DNA from: a virus | IMG/VR virus record: IMGVR_UViG_3300045284_000279 | Span: 1-64,000 of that record | Length of the DNA: 64,000 bases | Strand: one strand, 5' to 3' | Shown: one piece after another, positions 4,207 to 28,870 of the stretch | Position numbering within the stretch: position 1 is the stretch's first letter | Layout of the letters: each line of letters starts with the position of its first letter | Made by a program: the position numbers and the translations under genes | The notes under the pieces: model-generated | The model's input: the letters and a program-made list of their open reading frames with translations, nothing else | Database searches by the model: none | Told to the model about the DNA's origin: nothing

Positions 4207-4484
4207 AGGTCCGCGTGACGCTGGACGCCGACGCGCGCCTGCGGTTCGTTGTCGCGAAGTACTTCGGATCGAAGGGTCGCGCGACGCGGAAGCAGGTCCG
4301 CGAATTCGTGCGCGGCGCCGTTGCATCGGCCGTGCGCGAACATCAGGAGGCGCTGCGGCCTCGTTCGCGCGCAGCCGCAGAGCGGTTGGCTACCGCCGAA
4401 GGTCAGCCCAAGGTCGTCGAAGAATGTCTTCGCGTGAGTGAAAAGCAGTTGAGCCTCTTGGCAGGAGAAGGAGAAGTAGGATGA
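4203..4484 (+). CDS. hypothetical basic protein, 93 aa
   Basis: A 93-residue protein with a beta start (MKVRVTLD) and a basic helix (GRATRKQVREFVRGAV). The C-terminal residues EKQLSLLAGEGEVG contain a QLSLL stretch that resembles the short clamp-binding peptide QLxLF. The gene lies directly upstream of, and overlaps, the phage clamp gene, so a clamp-interacting role is an appealing inference. No domain was recognised. Confidence 0.55.
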   Translation: MKVRVTLDADARLRFVVAKYFGSKGRATRKQVREFVRGAVASAVREHQEALRPRSRAAAERLATAEGQPKVVEECLRVSEKQLSLLAGEGEVG

Positions 4485-5593
4485 TCGAATTCAACGTGAA
4501 GCCGTCGCTGATGGTGAAGGAACTGGAATTCGGGCAGCGCATCGCGAACCGCAAGTCGACGATTCCTATCCTCACGCACGTCAGTGTGGCGACGCTCGAC
4601 GACCAGACGATCGCGTTCGGCGTGACGGACACCGTGACGGCGCTGAAGTCGCAGTGCCACGCTAAGGTCGTGCGGCCAGGTTCCTGCGTGATGCCGGCGC
4701 GGAAGCTCTACGAGATCGTTAAGACCCTGCCGGCCGAAGCCGACCTGAAGATCGTGCACGACGGTGCGTCGGCGACGTTGACCTGCGGCGGCTACCGCGG
4801 CCGTCTCCAGTCGCTGCCCGCGGCAGACTTTCCGTCGTTGCCGGAGCCTGACGGCCTGTCGGCCGTGCTGCCGCGCGCGACGCTGAAAGACCTGTTGGAG
4901 CGCACGCGCTACGCCACCGCGAAGCAGGATCAGCGCTACTTCCTCGACGGCGTGCGGCTCGAGATCACCAACGACTCCATCACCTGCGCCTCGACCGACT
5001 CGCATCGGCTCTCGACGAGTGCCGTCGGGTTCGCAGGCCCGAAAGACCCGATCCTCACCATCGTCCAGAACGACATCGTCGACGAGCTCATCGCCATGCT
5101 TGACGGCGAGGGCGAAGTGGACTGCACGCTCGGCGCGAGCCACCTGTTCTTCGAGGCCGACGGCCGATGCCTCGTGCAGACGCTTCCGGCAGGTCAGTTC
5201 CCCGCGTGGCGTCGCATCGTGCCGTCACGCGACGCAGGTCCGACCGTGGAGAAAGATTCCCTCGAAGCGATCATCCGTCGTATCATGCTGATGTCCGACG
5301 GCGCGCGGTCGCGGACGATCGACTTCACCTTCAACAACGGCACGCTGTCGGTGACGTCGAGCAGTCAGCAGTTCGGCGACGCGAGCGAAGACCTGCCGCT
5401 CAAGTACGGCGACGGCGTGAAGAAGCTGGCCACGTCGCTCGCCGTCAACGGTGGCTTCGTGCTGGACTTCCTCGATGCGTCAGGGACGCAGGCCGTCGAG
5501 CTCAGCGTCGTCGACGAAGGCTCGCCGCTCGTGATGCGGCCTGTCGGCGCAGCCGTCGAGCACGTGAACGTGATGATGCCAGTCAGGCGCTGA
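4481..5593 (+). CDS. dnaN: DNA polymerase III beta subunit (sliding clamp)
   Basis: The 370-residue product matches bacterial beta clamps in length and architecture, with three clamp domains. Recognisable parts are the N-terminal strand-helix-strand with TIPILTHV, the FPSLPE motif near residue 125, RYATAKQDQRYFLDGVRLE, the ASTDSHRLS segment of domain 2, and the terminal MMPVRR, equivalent to the MPMRL end of cellular clamps. It should encircle DNA and tether polymerase and clamp-binding proteins. No phage polymerase gene was recognised nearby, so it may recruit host Pol III. It sits between recombination genes and the helicase-loader gene. Confidence 0.93.
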   Translation: MIEFNVKPSLMVKELEFGQRIANRKSTIPILTHVSVATLDDQTIAFGVTDTVTALKSQCHAKVVRPGSCVMPARKLYEIVKTLPAEADLKIVHDGASATLTCGGYRGRLQSLPAADFPSLPEPDGLSAVLPRATLKDLLERTRYATAKQDQRYFLDGVRLEITNDSITCASTDSHRLSTSAVGFAGPKDPILTIVQNDIVDELIAMLDGEGEVDCTLGASHLFFEADGRCLVQTLPAGQFPAWRRIVPSRDAGPTVEKDSLEAIIRRIMLMSDGARSRTIDFTFNNGTLSVTSSSQQFGDASEDLPLKYGDGVKKLATSLAVNGGFVLDFLDASGTQAVELSVVDEGSPLVMRPVGAAVEHVNVMMPVRR

Positions 5594-5596
5594 AAG

Positions 5597-5800
5597 ATGG
5601 ACAGGAACATCGACGAGAGGTTCAGGGACGCCGCCGCGCAGATCTATCAGCGCGACGGCTTCAGCATCCCGGTCTTCGGAGCCGTCTGGCGCATGGCCGA
5701 CGGCTCCGCCTTCGTCGAGGCTGTCGTCGAGGTCAAGCGTGCGGACCTCGACGCACTTGAAGGTCAGCAGCAGAAAGGCGGCGAACGTGCGAACGTGTAG
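5597..5800 (+). CDS. hypothetical protein, 67 aa
   Basis: The gene starts 3 nt after the clamp stop and encodes 67 residues, with a helix (DERFRDAAAQIYQRDG) and then an amphipathic beta/alpha part. No domain was recognised. Translation is probably coupled to the clamp gene. Confidence 0.55.
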   Translation: MDRNIDERFRDAAAQIYQRDGFSIPVFGAVWRMADGSAFVEAVVEVKRADLDALEGQQQKGGERANV

Positions 5801-6122
5801 CGCAGGAAGGTGCGTCGCGCTGGCTGTTCCGAAGCCCGAACTGATTCCTGAGAAGGTCGCAGGGATCGTGAAAGACGACAGCGGTTCTTTTCACGTCATC
5901 CTTGGTGACTGCGAGCCGATCTTCTTGACGCATCGTCACGCTCGCGCGGCAATCGAGCGGCACTTCACGACGACGTGCGCCGTGCACCGCCTGCGTCCAG
6001 CATGGCGTTCGGACGGGTTCAAGGAGCAGTGGACGGACTGGTATCGTCCGCCGCAGGTGCCGTCGGCAGCTGACGACAGGTCGTGGCCGCCGCTCGATCG
6101 CGAACTTAGGTGGCGGCGGTAA
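5787..6122 (+). CDS. hypothetical protein, 111 aa
   Basis: The GTG at 5787 overlaps the end of the previous gene, with AAAGGCGG about 8 nt upstream. The 111 residues include KVAGIVKDDSGSFHVILGD and THRHARAAIERHF, suggesting a small alpha/beta domain, then a tryptophan- and proline-rich tail. No family was recognised. A longer start in the same frame at 5739 would create an implausible 62-nt overlap. Confidence 0.5.
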   Translation: MRTCSAGRCVALAVPKPELIPEKVAGIVKDDSGSFHVILGDCEPIFLTHRHARAAIERHFTTTCAVHRLRPAWRSDGFKEQWTDWYRPPQVPSAADDRSWPPLDRELRWRR

Positions 6123-8546: not shown

Positions 8547-8977
8547 CGACTAAGGCAGGTCAACCCGGCGCGTTGAACTTCGACGTGCCTGAGCCTGCCG
8601 AGAGCGACAAGGTCGAGCCTGTACAGGAGCAGGCTCGTCCGCTCTCGCCGCCGCAGGATGCGCCTCAAGTCGATGACGTGCCGCAGAGCGATGAGATGGA
8701 TGCCGCGGCGCTTGTCTTCCTCGAAGATCCGATCGCGCGGAGACTCGCCGTCGCGTGGGTGACGTGCCGCGGCAACGAACACGAGTGGCTGGTAGCTGCA
8801 GGCCTGCCGCGCCTCGAAGCCTCGTCGCAGCGCATTGCGGCTGCGTTGAGGGCCAACCAGATCTGTCGACCCGGCGGCGTGACGGATGCGCTCGCCCTGC
8901 GCTACATCAGGGCCGTCATCACGAAGCCCATCATGGCCGTCGCGGAGCGTGCCAACCGCGGAAAGGACAAACGATGA
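8543..8977 (+). CDS. hypothetical protein, 144 aa
   Basis: GTG start overlapping the previous stop (GTGA). The first 55 residues are acidic and disordered (PEPAESDKVEPVQEQARPLSPP). Residues 60-140 are helical, with AWVTCRGNEHEWLVAAGLPR and a possible helix-turn-helix (SSQRIAAALRANQICRPGGVT). No family was recognised. The gene leads directly into the ParB-like gene with an ATGA overlap. Confidence 0.55.
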   Translation: MTTKAGQPGALNFDVPEPAESDKVEPVQEQARPLSPPQDAPQVDDVPQSDEMDAAALVFLEDPIARRLAVAWVTCRGNEHEWLVAAGLPRLEASSQRIAAALRANQICRPGGVTDALALRYIRAVITKPIMAVAERANRGKDKR

Positions 8978-9714
8978 CGAAGAAAGCTCCTCCTCAGAGC
9001 GACGAATTCGCTCCGAAGGGGAAGGTCGAACGCGTTCCCGTCAGTAAGCTGAAGCCGCATCCGCGCAACTACAAGATCCACCCGCAGGAGCAGATCGACC
9101 ACATCGTCAAGAGCATCGCCGAGCACGGCATCTATCGCAACGTCGTCGTGGCAAAGGACTACACGATCCTCGCCGGGCACGGCGTCGTGCAGGCGATTCA
9201 AAGCATGGGTCTGCTCGGCCCTGACTTGGTGCCGGTCTTCCGCACAGACCTCGATCCGGAGGATCCGCGCGCGCTCAAGATCCTCACCGGCGACAACGAG
9301 ATCAGCCGCCTCGCGGAAGTCGACGATCGCACGTTGACGGGCGTGCTGAAAGACCTCGTCGAAGACCTCGCCGGCACGGGCTTCGACGCGCAGAGCTTGT
9401 CGGCGCTCGTGTTTGTGAGTCGTCCGATCGAGGAGGTCCGCGACAAGAACGAAGCCGCAGAGTGGGTCGGCATGCCGGCCTACGACGAAGGCTCGCAACA
9501 GCTCTTGCTTTCGATGATGTTCCGCGACCCCGATGCGCGGGCGCAGTTCGTCAAGCAGTTCGAGATCAAGATCTCGAAGCGCTCCACCAACGGCAAGGTC
9601 TGGTCGGCGTGGTGGCCGTTCGTGCCTCGCATGGCGCGGCAACAGCAGGTGCTTTTCACTGACGAGGATCTCGATGTCAAGCCAGACGCCAAGCCCGAAC
9701 CCGCCGCCGTCTGA
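8974..9714 (+). CDS. ParB/Srx-like nuclease-domain protein
   Basis: The 246-residue product carries an N-terminal ParB-like domain: VERVPVSKLKPHPRNYKIHP (18-37), IVKSIAEHGIYRNVVV, ILAGHG (65-70) in the place of the GERR/GHxR box, and LKILTGDNEISRLAEVDD. ParB-like domains in phages occur in plasmid-type CTPases, in nucleases and next to DNA methylases or base-modification enzymes. The overlap with a TET-associated-type glycosyltransferase gene supports the last setting here. Residues 165-246 (YDEGSQQLLLSMMFRDPDAR, then a tryptophan-rich part) are an additional domain not seen in chromosomal ParB. Confidence 0.8.
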   Translation: MTKKAPPQSDEFAPKGKVERVPVSKLKPHPRNYKIHPQEQIDHIVKSIAEHGIYRNVVVAKDYTILAGHGVVQAIQSMGLLGPDLVPVFRTDLDPEDPRALKILTGDNEISRLAEVDDRTLTGVLKDLVEDLAGTGFDAQSLSALVFVSRPIEEVRDKNEAAEWVGMPAYDEGSQQLLLSMMFRDPDARAQFVKQFEIKISKRSTNGKVWSAWWPFVPRMARQQQVLFTDEDLDVKPDAKPEPAAV

Positions 9715-10606
9715 TCGACTGCGGCCGAAGTATCCCGTCTACATCCCGTCGAAGGGCCGCGCGGCCAACATGCTGACGTGCCGCGTCTTCGACAGGGGCA
9801 ACGTGCCGTATCGCATCGTCGTGGAGCCGAGCCAGGTCGAGCACTATGCGCCGAAGTACGAGCACTGCCTGTTGGTCCTACCGGAAGACGGGAAAGGCCT
9901 CGTCTACTCGCGGAACTGGATCAAGCGCCACGCGACGGCGGAAGGTCACGCGCGGCACTGGCAGTTCGACGACGACATCAAGTTCATGACGCGGATGTAC
10001 AACGGCCATCGTCTGCCCATCGCGGCGAGCGCGGCGCTGGCGCTGGCTGAGACGTTCGTCGATCGCTACGAGAACGTCGCGCTGGCGAGCCTCAACAGCG
10101 AATTCTTCATCCCGTCGACCTACGGCACGAAGCGGATCTCCGTGCCGCCGTTCTACCTCAACGCGCGGTGCTACACCTGCTTCCTCGTGCTCAACTCGCT
10201 GCCGAACGAGTGGCGGCGACGCTACAACGAGGATACCGACATGACCTTGCAGGTGCTCGCCGACGGCTGGTGCACGGTCCTGTTCAACGCGTTCATGATC
10301 TCGACGCCAGAGACGATGACGGACAAGGGCGGACAGACCAGCATCTACGTCTCGGACGGTCGCCTGAAGATGGCGCGTCAGCTCGAGAGCATGTGGCCTG
10401 GCACGGTGTCGGTGATCCGCCGCCACGGCAGGCCGCAGCACATGATTCGGCACGACTGGAAGCACTTCGACACGCCGCTCAAGCGGAAGCCTGGGCTCGA
10501 GATTCCCGACGGTCCAGACGAGCACGGCATGCGGCTGAAGGCCGTCGGCGAGGTCACGCACCCAATGCTCAAGGAGATGTTGACCGAGATGGAGAGCAAA
10601 CGATGA
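9674..10606 (+). CDS. TET-associated-type glycosyltransferase (TAGT-like)
   Basis: The 310-residue product shows the pattern of the phage TAGT glycosyltransferases predicted to decorate hydroxylated DNA bases. It has YPVYIPSKGRA (20-30), YRIVVEPSQVEHYAP (46-60), GLVYSRNWIKRHA, and HWQFDDDIKFM (95-105) as the metal/nucleotide-sugar DxD-like site. NEDTDMTLQVLADGW then forms the second acidic motif. Start ATG 9674 lies inside the ParB-like gene (41-nt overlap), indicating tight co-expression. The sugar donor is unknown. A TET/JBP oxygenase or pyrimidine hydroxymethylase was not recognised in this window. Confidence 0.75.
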   Translation: MSSQTPSPNPPPSDRLRPKYPVYIPSKGRAANMLTCRVFDRGNVPYRIVVEPSQVEHYAPKYEHCLLVLPEDGKGLVYSRNWIKRHATAEGHARHWQFDDDIKFMTRMYNGHRLPIAASAALALAETFVDRYENVALASLNSEFFIPSTYGTKRISVPPFYLNARCYTCFLVLNSLPNEWRRRYNEDTDMTLQVLADGWCTVLFNAFMISTPETMTDKGGQTSIYVSDGRLKMARQLESMWPGTVSVIRRHGRPQHMIRHDWKHFDTPLKRKPGLEIPDGPDEHGMRLKAVGEVTHPMLKEMLTEMESKR

Positions 10607-11406
10607 AGGCCGTCGCCGTCGTCCCGTGGGTGACGCAACTCGAACGCGACGCCTTCTTGGGCGCGTGGGGCCTGTCGAAGTACAGCGCGCTGCCGTCGTT
10701 CCTGCACTTCCAGCAGGACAAGCACAAGGACGGCTGCGGCGCGACGAAGAACGCCGGCATCGGTGCCGCGGTCGATGCAGGAGCCGACGTCGTCGTCGTG
10801 CTGGACGGAGACTGCTATCCGTCGGAAGAAGCGCCGACGCTCGAACACCTCATGCAGCAGCACGTCGTCGCGTTGACGCCGCAGCATGTCAAGCTGTACG
10901 ATCAGGTGACGGCACCAGCCTCGCGCGGCACGCCGTACTACCACGAGAACTTCCACGTGCTTATGCCGGTCGCGGCGAGCATGGGTTTCTGGACGAACGT
11001 GCCGGACTACTGCGCCGTCAGGCAGTTGGCGCTGCAGGAGCCGATGACCTTCCGGCGCGAGACGGTCTTCGGTCGCTACTTCCCACTCTGCGGCATGAAC
11101 CTCGCCTTCAGGCCTGCCGAGTGGTTTCCGTGGTGCCAGTTCATCGAGGTCGATCGCTTCGACGACATCTGGATGGGATGGCTGTTCCAGAAGGAAGCGT
11201 ATCGCCGCGGCTACTGCTTCAACCTTGCAGGTCCGCTCGTGCACCACTCTCGCCAGAGCAACGTCTGGCGAAACCTCGCGTCTGAGGCACGCTTCCTCGA
11301 AGAGACTGAGACGCTGTGGCGGAAGATCGCCTTGGCGCCTCAGACGACATACGGCGACCTGCTGCCACTGCTACCTGCCGGCACGCGAGGGTTGAAGATC
11401 CGATGA
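10603..11406 (+). CDS. GT75/RGP-like glycosyltransferase or UDP-sugar mutase-like protein
   Basis: The 267-residue product resembles reversibly glycosylated polypeptides (GT75). The acidic metal site is VVVVLDGDCYP (64-73). The acceptor-side block has FPLCGMNLAF (160-169), the near-diagnostic RFDDIWMGW (185-193; RYDDMWAGW in plant proteins) and VHHSRQSNVWRNLASE (213-228, like HSKASNPFVNL). Known GT75 members interconvert UDP-arabinopyranose and furanose or self-glycosylate. A phage member beside a TAGT could supply or transfer a pentose to DNA. It overlaps its neighbours by ATGA on both sides. Confidence 0.75.
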   Translation: MKAVAVVPWVTQLERDAFLGAWGLSKYSALPSFLHFQQDKHKDGCGATKNAGIGAAVDAGADVVVVLDGDCYPSEEAPTLEHLMQQHVVALTPQHVKLYDQVTAPASRGTPYYHENFHVLMPVAASMGFWTNVPDYCAVRQLALQEPMTFRRETVFGRYFPLCGMNLAFRPAEWFPWCQFIEVDRFDDIWMGWLFQKEAYRRGYCFNLAGPLVHHSRQSNVWRNLASEARFLEETETLWRKIALAPQTTYGDLLPLLPAGTRGLKIR

Positions 11407-11840
11407 AGCCTCTCGTCGTCGGCGAAGCGCCCGGTCGTCGTGGTGGCCCACCTCTCGCGGGCGACTGCGGCCAACGCCTCGCCGACTTCTACGGCGTGTC
11501 GTTGCGAGACTTCAAACGGACGTTCACGTGCGTGAACCTGCTGCGCGAGTGGCCAGGGTCCGCAGGGAAGGGATCGAGGTTCCCTCTCGCCGAGGCCAAG
11601 GTGCAGGCTGAGCGGATCGCAGCGCGACTGCCGTGGGGTCGCGTAGTGATCCTGCTCGGTCGTCGCGTGGCCTCAGCATTCGGAGTCAAGACGGACTATT
11701 TCAGGCGAGCGCGGATCGGGAAGTGCATCATGGTCTTCGTCGTGCCTCACCCGTCGCGCGTGAACAGGTGGTTCAACGACCCTGCGAACGTCGACTCGAT
11801 GCGCGCGTTCATGCGAACTATGAAGCCGGTGTCGAGATGA
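11403..11840 (+). CDS. uracil-DNA glycosylase superfamily protein (family-4-like)
   Basis: The 145-residue protein has VGEAPG at residues 6-11 (motif 1 of family 4/5 UDGs), GGPPLAGDCGQRLADFYG, a NLLREWPG segment, VVILLGRRVASAFG, and the DNA-inserting VPHPSRVNRWFND (114-126), with HPS as motif 2. The four cysteines of an iron-sulphur cluster are absent, so it is a short Fe-S-less variant. The enzyme should flip out and excise or recognise a base. Embedded between sugar-transfer genes and a HARE-HTH gene, it may act on a modified or unmodified pyrimidine instead of uracil. Confidence 0.75.
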   Translation: MKPLVVGEAPGRRGGPPLAGDCGQRLADFYGVSLRDFKRTFTCVNLLREWPGSAGKGSRFPLAEAKVQAERIAARLPWGRVVILLGRRVASAFGVKTDYFRRARIGKCIMVFVVPHPSRVNRWFNDPANVDSMRAFMRTMKPVSR

Positions 11841-12811
11841 ACAGCGAAAACTTCAACGTCGTGTTTCCAGAGCGAAATGAGTTTGTCTCGATCGTAGAGC
11901 GAGCGCTGATGATGGCGAAGCATCCGATGAAGCCTCGCGAGCTTGCGCTGATCGTCTGGAAAGAATGGGGCGTGCAGGGAAAGTACATCGACGGCAAATA
12001 CAAGAACCTCCAGAACCTCGAAGAGAGGATCAGGACTGCTGCGATATGTTCCGGCAAGTTAGGGTATGGGGGCCTCGGACGCAATTCTCAGGCGTATGTC
12101 TTCATGCGGTGGTGGTTTGCCGATGCAGGATTGTTCAACGATCAGCCTGAGCCGATCGCGATAGAGGTGACGCGCGAGATCAGAGATTTGGCCATGCGAG
12201 ACGCCGAGCGTAGAGCGCGCTTCTTGCAGGCTGGCAGTCGAGGTGTCGGCCGGCACTTGAGCGACGTAGTGTCTGGATTCATCTGCCAGTATGCCGTTCG
12301 GTGCTATATGGAAGAACGATGGCCGACGATCGTGCTTCCGCCTAGCAACGAACACGACTTCAAGCGGCCTGCTCCAGACGATCTGAGGGTCGTCAAGATA
12401 TCCAAGAGGAAGCAGATCTTGGTTGACGTCACGTCGACTGCTAAGACTACAGGAGTGTTCGGACCTGTCGTAAAGGAAGTCAACGGCAGATCTGCCCACT
12501 TCCACGTGCTGACCTCTCCGGTGAGGAGCATGAGGAACGAGATCGTAAGGGTGCTCATCCACGGATGGGTGAGCAGGGGCGAACTAGAGAAAGGCGTTTA
12601 CGCCTGCGATGCGAGGAACTTCACTTCGCTCGAGGTGAGGCTCAACTGCATCGTGGCTGACGTTGACTATCACGAGATGCGGCGTGTCGACGACCTCGCT
12701 CAAGCGCAAAGGAACGCTGAACTCGTACAGTCTGGCCGCAAGCTACCGACGCACCAGTCGAAGAAGAAAAACAAAAAGCCGACAGGTCCTCTAGCGATGA
12801 TGTGGGATTGA
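11837..12811 (+). CDS. HARE-HTH domain protein with possible nuclease-fold C-terminus
   Basis: Residues about 15-75 (FVSIVERALMMAKHPMKPRE, then LALIVWKEWG) fit a HARE-HTH domain, a winged-helix-like module found in restriction and chromatin proteins and thought to sense DNA modification. Residues 138-230 contain a helix (RHLSDVVSGFICQYAVRCYM), then DDLRVVKISKRKQILVDVTS and HFHVLTSP. This order is compatible with a restriction-endonuclease-like fold, although a clear D/ExK is missing. The C-terminus is lysine-rich. Codons end in A/T more often than in neighbouring genes, suggesting later acquisition. Function is unproven. Confidence 0.6.
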   Translation: MNSENFNVVFPERNEFVSIVERALMMAKHPMKPRELALIVWKEWGVQGKYIDGKYKNLQNLEERIRTAAICSGKLGYGGLGRNSQAYVFMRWWFADAGLFNDQPEPIAIEVTREIRDLAMRDAERRARFLQAGSRGVGRHLSDVVSGFICQYAVRCYMEERWPTIVLPPSNEHDFKRPAPDDLRVVKISKRKQILVDVTSTAKTTGVFGPVVKEVNGRSAHFHVLTSPVRSMRNEIVRVLIHGWVSRGELEKGVYACDARNFTSLEVRLNCIVADVDYHEMRRVDDLAQAQRNAELVQSGRKLPTHQSKKKNKKPTGPLAMMWD

Positions 12812-28045: not shown

Positions 28046-28139
28046 AGGGAAGCTCTGCCCATTTCACGGCATCAACATCCACCAGACGCTGGAAGCAAAG
28101 CAGGCTCCACGACGCGAGACGAGAGGCTTCAATCGATGA
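28002..28139 (+). CDS. zinc-finger small protein, 45 aa
   Basis: From GTG 28002 (a TTG at 27957 is also in frame), this encodes CFRCLDEGALVKLEGKLCPF followed by HG, a C-x2-C-x13-C-x2-H zinc finger, and a basic tail. It overlaps the membrane peptide gene by 44 nt and ends in ATGA overlap with the ATP-grasp gene. The motif supports the frame; the start is uncertain. Confidence 0.5.
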   Translation: MCFRCLDEGALVKLEGKLCPFHGINIHQTLEAKQAPRRETRGFNR

Positions 28140-28870
28140 ACAGCATGAGCATCGAGAGTAAGACGCGCCTGAGCTTTTGGTTCCCGCTCATCAAGGCTGC
28201 AGGCCTGCCTGTTCCCAAGACGCAGATCGTTGGGATCTCGCCTGACGAAGACCGCAGTATGGTGCTTCTGCTTGACGGCAACCTTCCGCCATGTTGGGAA
28301 GATCTGATCAATCGCATAGAGGTCTCAGCTGAAGCCTTCGGGTATCCGTTCTTCCTGCGGACTGACTTCACCAGCAACAAGCACGATTGGGATGATTCGT
28401 GCTGCGTGAGGAATCCTGCGAAGCTCTCACATCACGTGGAAAACCTTATAGCATTCAGCGAAATGGCTGATATGTTCGGTGGCGTTCCTGTAGGCGCCTT
28501 CGTCCTGCGCGAGATGCTGCCGACGGTGCCAGCGTTCTACGCCTTCAATGGCATGCCCATCGTGCGTGAATTCCGCGTCTTCGTGCGTGACGGTCTCGTC
28601 GAACACATACAGCCGTACTGGCCGCCTGAGGCCATCGAGCGCAGTATCATCGAACCGAGCCTCAAGTCATGGCGCACGGCACTCCAGATGATGTCGGTGC
28701 TCGACGACGAGACCAAGCAGGTCTTGACTCGCCTCGCGCTGCAAGCGAATGCGGCCGTACCTGGGTATTGGTCGGTAGACTTCCTCGACGTCTCTGGATG
28801 TTGGGTGCTTACCGACATGGCCGAAGGCGACCTGTCGTTCAAGTGTAACCCTCAAGCAGCAGGAGTATGA
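28136..28870 (+). CDS. ATP-grasp-like (D123-like) protein
   Basis: The 244-residue protein has an ATP-grasp arrangement. PFFLRTDFTSNKHDWDDSC (about 71-89) supplies the first Arg and Lys, AFVLREMLP the hinge, MPIVREFRVFVRDG an R-E-x-R segment, and YWSVDFLDV...WVLTDMAEGD (about 213-234) the metal-binding acids. This matches phage ATP-grasp proteins related to the D123 family, which ligate or phosphorylate unknown substrates. It sits between the large terminase and the portal genes, an unusual place for an enzyme. Substrate unknown. Confidence 0.7.
   Translation: MNSMSIESKTRLSFWFPLIKAAGLPVPKTQIVGISPDEDRSMVLLLDGNLPPCWEDLINRIEVSAEAFGYPFFLRTDFTSNKHDWDDSCCVRNPAKLSHHVENLIAFSEMADMFGGVPVGAFVLREMLPTVPAFYAFNGMPIVREFRVFVRDGLVEHIQPYWPPEAIERSIIEPSLKSWRTALQMMSVLDDETKQVLTRLALQANAAVPGYWSVDFLDVSGCWVLTDMAEGDLSFKCNPQAAGV

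Follow-up and report, generated by a model that had tools for sequence, protein, structure and literature searches.

The first 64,000 bases of the 69,760-base IMG/VR virus record IMGVR_UViG_3300045284_000279, from an uncultured bacterial virus, form the window analysed here (64% G+C), in which a cassette of five plus-strand genes at positions 8974-12811 may serve to glycosylate the phage's own DNA. In order, the genes encode a ParB-like protein of 246 amino acids (8974-9714), a glycosyltransferase of the TAGT family (9674-10606), a GT75/RGP-like protein (10603-11406), a UDG-like protein (11403-11840) and an orphan protein (11837-12811). This gene set is the one given by the original prediction, which rested on the DNA letters and also described tight ATGA overlaps throughout. 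Such overlaps join TAGT to RGP (10603), RGP to UDG (11403) and UDG to the orphan (11837), and an ATGA at 8974 connects the upstream neighbour gene to ParB as well; the ParB/TAGT junction is not of this kind, as the TAGT starts either at ATG 9674, with a 41-base overlap, or at CTG 9719. The cassette sits inside a replication and recombination region that encodes an ERF protein, a DNA sliding clamp, a RuvC-like resolvase and, identified by eye, DnaB-like and single-stranded DNA-binding (SSB)-like proteins. It is far from the terminase-like and portal-like genes, which were recognised by eye from 26 kb onward.

The presumed DNA glycosyltransferase covers profile positions 1-205 of 205 of PF20691 (133.6 bits against a cut-off of 27.5; E 1.1e-38) and matches phrog_842 in PHROG (2.8e-46). 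It carries the TAGT active-site motif HWQFDDDI, and residues D86, D87, D174 and D176 are invariant in 17 sequences. The AlphaFold2 model has a mean predicted local distance difference test score (pLDDT) of 87 and falls among GT-A enzymes in Foldseek, so the proposed identity holds over the whole domain and in the structural check. In phages T2 and T6, a PF20691 enzyme puts a second glucose onto DNA (PMC13216743). This beta-glucosyl-hydroxymethylcytosine (HMC)-alpha-glucosyltransferase is likewise phage-encoded and shares the Pfam and PHROG families and the GT-A fold, whereas its acceptor is glucosyl-HMC and its sugar the second glucose, and the TAGT of the window is instead accompanied by a ParB protein and a furanose mutase. 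The T4 alpha-glucosyltransferase family was not found among 27 records, including that of the window and 24 related virus records, in a search where the positive control also went unmatched. Searched at the nucleotide level, phage records gave no match to the cassette.

The GT75/RGP-like protein matches PF03214 (RGP) at 31.6 bits, against a cut-off of 23.8 (E 1.3e-7). In a Foldseek search with its AlphaFold model, ranks 1-7 are all GT75 mutases, comprising OsUAM2 (8cid, 5.7e-8) and six MtdL entries (7.9e-8 to 6.2e-7), with TM-scores of 0.58-0.62 by query length; the family resemblance first noted is thus borne out. When a profile of ten phage homologues was compared with PDB sequences, four MtdL sequences (0.0024-0.01) were the sole matches below 0.1, and those at 0.14 and 0.97 come from unrelated proteins. 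Mn2+ is bound in MtdL by His287 and the DXD aspartates, Arg159 corresponds to the arginine that is glycosylated in the plant enzymes, and activity is lost when D109, R159, D195, R257 or D260 is mutated (PMC9937993). Residues D109, D111, R159, D195, R257, D260 and H287 of MtdL correspond to D68, D70, R108, D135, R185, D188 and H215 of the phage protein in an hmmsearch alignment, read with an offset of one residue from the numbering of that paper. The DXD metal site, the glycosylated arginine and the Asp, Arg and His that bind sugar or diphosphate are therefore aligned in seven of seven positions, and all seven are invariant across the ten phage homologues. The S228-Q229 pair of MtdL is replaced by G-M in the phage proteins.

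Judging from alignment and model, the protein is most likely a nucleoside diphosphate (NDP)-pyranose mutase that makes a furanose donor, rather than the second glycosyltransferase that was originally proposed. It is like the GT75 mutases (plant UAM/RGP, bacterial MtdL and Hyg20) in its fold and in the seven residues compared, among them the arginine that is autoglycosylated. It is unlike them in being shorter, at 267 amino acids, in being encoded by a phage and in its context of DNA modification, and its substrate is predicted only. Plant GT75 enzymes can have UDP-galactofuranose as well as UDP-arabinofuranose as products (PMC9937993). Among 50,697 phage records, no close homologue of the mutase occurs in any isolated phage, and the only relative is a weak one (31%) in one uncultured record. 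A Gemmatimonadales metagenome-assembled genome encodes a 61%-identical mutase within a bacterial sugar cluster (L112:7573-8346), and this group is a possible source lineage or host group.

The mutase and the TAGT are coupled across related loci, which were compared in a set of 81 TAGT loci from two IMG/VR scans, near-duplicates included (loci bear L numbers). A maximum-likelihood tree of TAGTs places the window inside a clade of 15 rows with support of 99/96. An RGP gene lies near the TAGT in 12 of these 15 rows, usually as the next gene after it, as compared with 1 of 62 rows elsewhere (Fisher 1.5e-10, shared ancestry uncorrected); the sole RGP-bearing row outside the clade is L088, a fragment on a long branch. 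Locus L011 is nested among the RGP-bearing L009 and L012-L014 (100/100 and 99/97). RGP is absent from this locus, which encodes a sulfotransferase and a flavin adenine dinucleotide (FAD)-dependent UDP-galactopyranose mutase (PF03275 3e-51; TIGR00031 2e-79). Among 50 records searched, such a mutase was found only in L011 and in L037, which lies outside the clade of the window, both times within the TAGT operon. Because RGP is absent from L011 and an unrelated flavin mutase is present, two unrelated enzymes, with NDP-furanose as their only common product class, appear to fill one place. At five RGP loci without a TAGT (L097-L101), no clear partner was seen.

The donor sugar is thus probably a furanose. 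Flavin UDP-galactopyranose mutases by definition produce UDP-galactofuranose. Since this is the only product known for both mutase types, UDP-galactofuranose is the probable common denominator of the two, with arabinofuranose as an alternative. The pentose addition that was first suggested could therefore still hold in the form of arabinofuranose, although galactofuranose accounts better for the exchange of RGP for a UDP-galactopyranose mutase. Other TAGTs have sugar-nucleotide genes nearby, for UDP-glucuronate decarboxylase, UDP-glucose dehydrogenases and epimerases; the decarboxylase of L055 matches human UXS1 at 5e-130, and three similar proteins occur in L021, L073 and L076. No epimerase of the sugar-nucleotide family was found in the record of the window, such that a pyranose donor would be host-derived.

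Further genes accompany the TAGT in individual relatives. Sulfotransferase genes lie beside TAGT and furanose mutase at L011:2082-3005, L012:9666-10514, L013:3175-3879 and L037:2385-2984, the first three by Sulfotransfer_2 matches and that of L037 by a weak profile match and by eye, and sulfated DNA sugars are possible in some relatives. In L009, genes for a cytidylyltransferase (PF02348 3.8e-21) and NeuB (1e-55) at 4445-6048 lie 3' of the ParB-TAGT-RGP cassette and its terminase. Between TAGT and RGP, L004 (8824-10763) and L008 (9639-10508) both encode an uncharacterised family beginning ..FIHPGKEQ.., for which no Pfam match was found, and L004 additionally encodes a radical SAM/SPASM protein. 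A Vsr-like mismatch endonuclease, recognised by eye, is encoded at L046:3010-3471, immediately 3' of a TAGT gene.

Alternatively, the RGP-like protein could be a transferase in its own right and attach a second sugar, so that pyranose donors would give an ordinary di-glycosyl base. The GT-A fold and self-glycosylation of GT75 proteins would fit this, and two to four TAGTs occur in 26 of the 81 loci, which makes chain extension likely somewhere in the family. However, every residue needed for mutase chemistry is retained, GT75 mutases make up all seven of the closest folds, and the substitute in L011 is a flavin mutase, which is incapable of sugar transfer. We therefore regard a second transferase as unlikely.

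The link from the TAGT to DNA is suggested by the ParB-like protein, which matches phrog_620 (1.2e-26), phrog_498 (8e-27) and PADLOC MTase_II (1.6e-16). Its N-terminal ParB domain (about residues 17-150) resembles the ParB part of DNA methyltransferase families from phages, as phrog_498 is annotated 'DNA methyltransferase' and the MTase_II match spans residues 17-160. C-terminal to it lies a companion domain, about 75 residues long, with the motif EW..MP...F..W.P (approximately 9454-9681, plus strand; profile positions of about 150-225 of 227). The companion domain ties ParB to TAGT: it is C-terminal on ParB in the window, and elsewhere it stands alone just 5' of the TAGT or is N-terminal on the TAGT itself. 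The fusion to TAGT was found in 11 open reading frames (ORFs), one of them in Aeromonas phage Aeh1. In a de-duplicated set, 29 TAGTs are preceded by a full-length ParB, and 34 ORFs have the companion domain alone; a count of ParB within 150 bases of TAGT in 66 of 81 loci was set aside as an overcount, as about half of these match the companion domain only. The conserved core is ParB and TAGT, with or without the furanose mutase, and the orphan protein lies outside it.

ParB domains are common near DNA-modifying enzymes, including those that modify cytosine (PMC12783734), and by analogy with such known partners DNA is the likely acceptor of the TAGT. The ParB partners of CmoX and of DNA methyltransferases are alike in that a ParB domain stands beside a DNA-modifying enzyme (PMC12783734), whereas the ParB of the window also bears the TAGT-associated companion domain. 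The cassette of L037 flanks a gene that is DNA-polymerase-like by eye.

The sugar might instead be destined for the host surface or for a protein of the virion, not for DNA. Some TAGTs have genes of the sulfotransferase, NeuB, cytidylyltransferase and FkbM types in their vicinity, and surface and virion glycan systems also have sulfotransferase, NeuB and FkbM; glycosylation of mycobacteriophage virions has been reported (as cited in PMC12619734), and the 61% relative of the mutase belongs to a bacterial sugar cluster. On the other hand, DNA is the substrate of the TAGT family in T2 and T6, ParB and the companion domain are linked to TAGT by adjacency and by fusion, and the cassette of the window lies amid replication and recombination genes at a distance from terminase and portal. 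A surface or virion target consequently seems doubtful. Still less probable is that the acceptor is DNA while an ordinary sugar nucleotide of the host serves as donor and the mutase is merely co-located for another purpose, given that, although L003 and L007 of the same clade lack both mutases on their partial contigs, RGP accompanies 12 of the 15 TAGTs in the clade and a non-homologous mutase takes its place in L011.

The reading that we favour, with a probability of about 0.5, is that the phage uses the cassette to attach a furanose sugar to its own DNA. It draws on the computed family and GT-A fold of the TAGT, the homology and active site of the mutase, the coupling of the two within a clade, the replacement of one mutase by another and the domain that links ParB to TAGT, from which we infer the following route. 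The host would supply an NDP-pyranose, most likely UDP-galactopyranose or alternatively UDP-arabinopyranose. The GT75 homologue would contract the ring by way of the conserved arginine to yield the NDP-furanose, and the TAGT would attach the furanosyl group to a hydroxylated pyrimidine of the DNA. Recruitment of the TAGT to DNA, possibly at particular sites, may fall to the ParB protein and its companion domain. The hydroxylated base could come from the host or from an unrecognised phage gene, and the product would shield phage DNA against restriction. A DNA-glycosylation cassette stands as the best reading of the locus, with the GT75-like protein most likely a mutase and with the UDG and the orphan, first labelled HARE-HTH, outside the core.

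Several observations weigh against this proposal. The model of the mutase is of moderate confidence (pLDDT 72.5), its closest cellular relative lies in a Gemmatimonadales sugar cluster without a TAGT, the replacement of the mutase is seen within the clade at the single locus L011, and the glycan-type genes near some TAGTs would suit a surface or virion target. Nor was a gene found that would make the hydroxylated base. TET/JBP genes were found in 0 of 65 IMG/VR records, although the positive control, Nonlabens phage P12024L, was detected, and thymidylate-synthase-family genes were found in 0 of 46; most of these records are fragments, so these negatives are no more than suggestive. Six-base palindromes are mildly rarer than expected in the window (mean z -1.1 versus 0.02), and such mild avoidance argues against full protective modification of all sites. 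Individual rare palindromes in the window are TTCGAA (3 seen versus 21.6 expected), CTAG (22 versus 51.7) and TGCA (195 versus 286.6).

That the window lacks a gene to oxidise or hydroxymethylate the base had been noted at the outset, and the search of the whole 69,760-base record extends this, as neither a TET/JBP nor a thymidylate-synthase-family gene was found there. Thymidylate-synthase-family matches in Aeh1, henriette and Kuja were considered as hydroxymethylases and rejected, given that they are annotated thymidylate synthases; they leave the acceptor base unsettled. Another TET-like dioxygenase family (PF20515) gave only a sub-threshold match, to the TET of P12024L. In that phage, a TET gene (5.9e-27) lies directly upstream of the TAGT, an arrangement that speaks for DNA as the acceptor. 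The TET-TAGT modules of P12024L and the cassette of the window are alike in that a dedicated partner gene precedes the TAGT in the operon, but the partner is a TET dioxygenase in P12024L, with an adjoining gene for an N6_N4-type methylase domain, and ParB in the window.

The two remaining genes of the cassette are not part of its core. The product of the fourth is a divergent member of the UDG superfamily (PF03167 9.7e-6; phrog_12275 3.4e-22; alignment of relatives) that matches the NCBIfam model for UDG family 4 at merely 0.018. Family-4 membership, for which four iron-sulphur cysteines and GEAPG(E)...HPS are the marks, was rejected: HPS is present, GEAPG has no acid after it, and there are only three cysteines and hence no family-4 iron-sulphur set, in line with the original description of a UDG without these cysteines. 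The gene is a sporadic accessory that occurs in 7 other TAGT loci, and a comparison with PDB sequences gave nothing meaningful. The orphan protein, which shares an ATGA overlap with the UDG gene, is an unproven member of the system; it has no match in Pfam, PHROG, NCBIfam, PADLOC or PDB and no IMG/VR relative by peptide patterns. Its earlier label of HARE-HTH is unsupported by any library or relative, with no match to a curated Pfam model up to E = 1, although a remote resemblance is possible.

Elsewhere in the window, a complete three-domain DNA polymerase III beta clamp is phage-encoded at 4481-5593 (1.6e-19 or weaker). An R2K-clade ATP-grasp protein (PF14243 5.9e-6) is encoded at 28136-28870, between the terminase-like and portal-like genes. 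Enzymes of the R2K clade ligate amino acids or peptides.

Sugars on phage DNA are already known, arabinose included (PMC6024577, PMC13390438). The arabinosyl-cytosine systems of RB69-like Mosigvirus are comparable in that a non-glucose sugar is placed on phage DNA with the help of phage donor genes. They differ in the GT-B fold of the candidate RB69 transferase, in a base that is provided by a 5-hydroxy-dCMP synthase and in the lack of any described mutase (PMC6024577, PMC13390438). A TAGT paired with a furanose mutase, GT75 proteins in phages and galactofuranose on DNA were not found in the literature searched, which did not cover Iyer 2013, Burke 2021 and Pyle 2024, such that a prior prediction is possible.

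A 2026 survey found a solitary TAGT in 288 of 753 glycosyltransferase-bearing phage genomes and proposed these as novel transferases (PMC13216743). For one clade of solitary TAGTs, the cassette offers an NDP-furanose as a concrete candidate donor and ParB as a likely partner. More tentatively, it could be that a widespread family of uncultured phages furanosylates its DNA with galactofuranose or arabinofuranose, in some relatives possibly sulfated, by means of one of two unrelated mutases and a ParB-linked TAGT and with no TET or hydroxymethylase, which would imply an unknown route to the acceptor base. Furanosylation would then count as a novel modification of DNA bases, relevant to the evasion of restriction and CRISPR, and the mutase-TAGT pair would be usable as a tool for furanose labelling of DNA.

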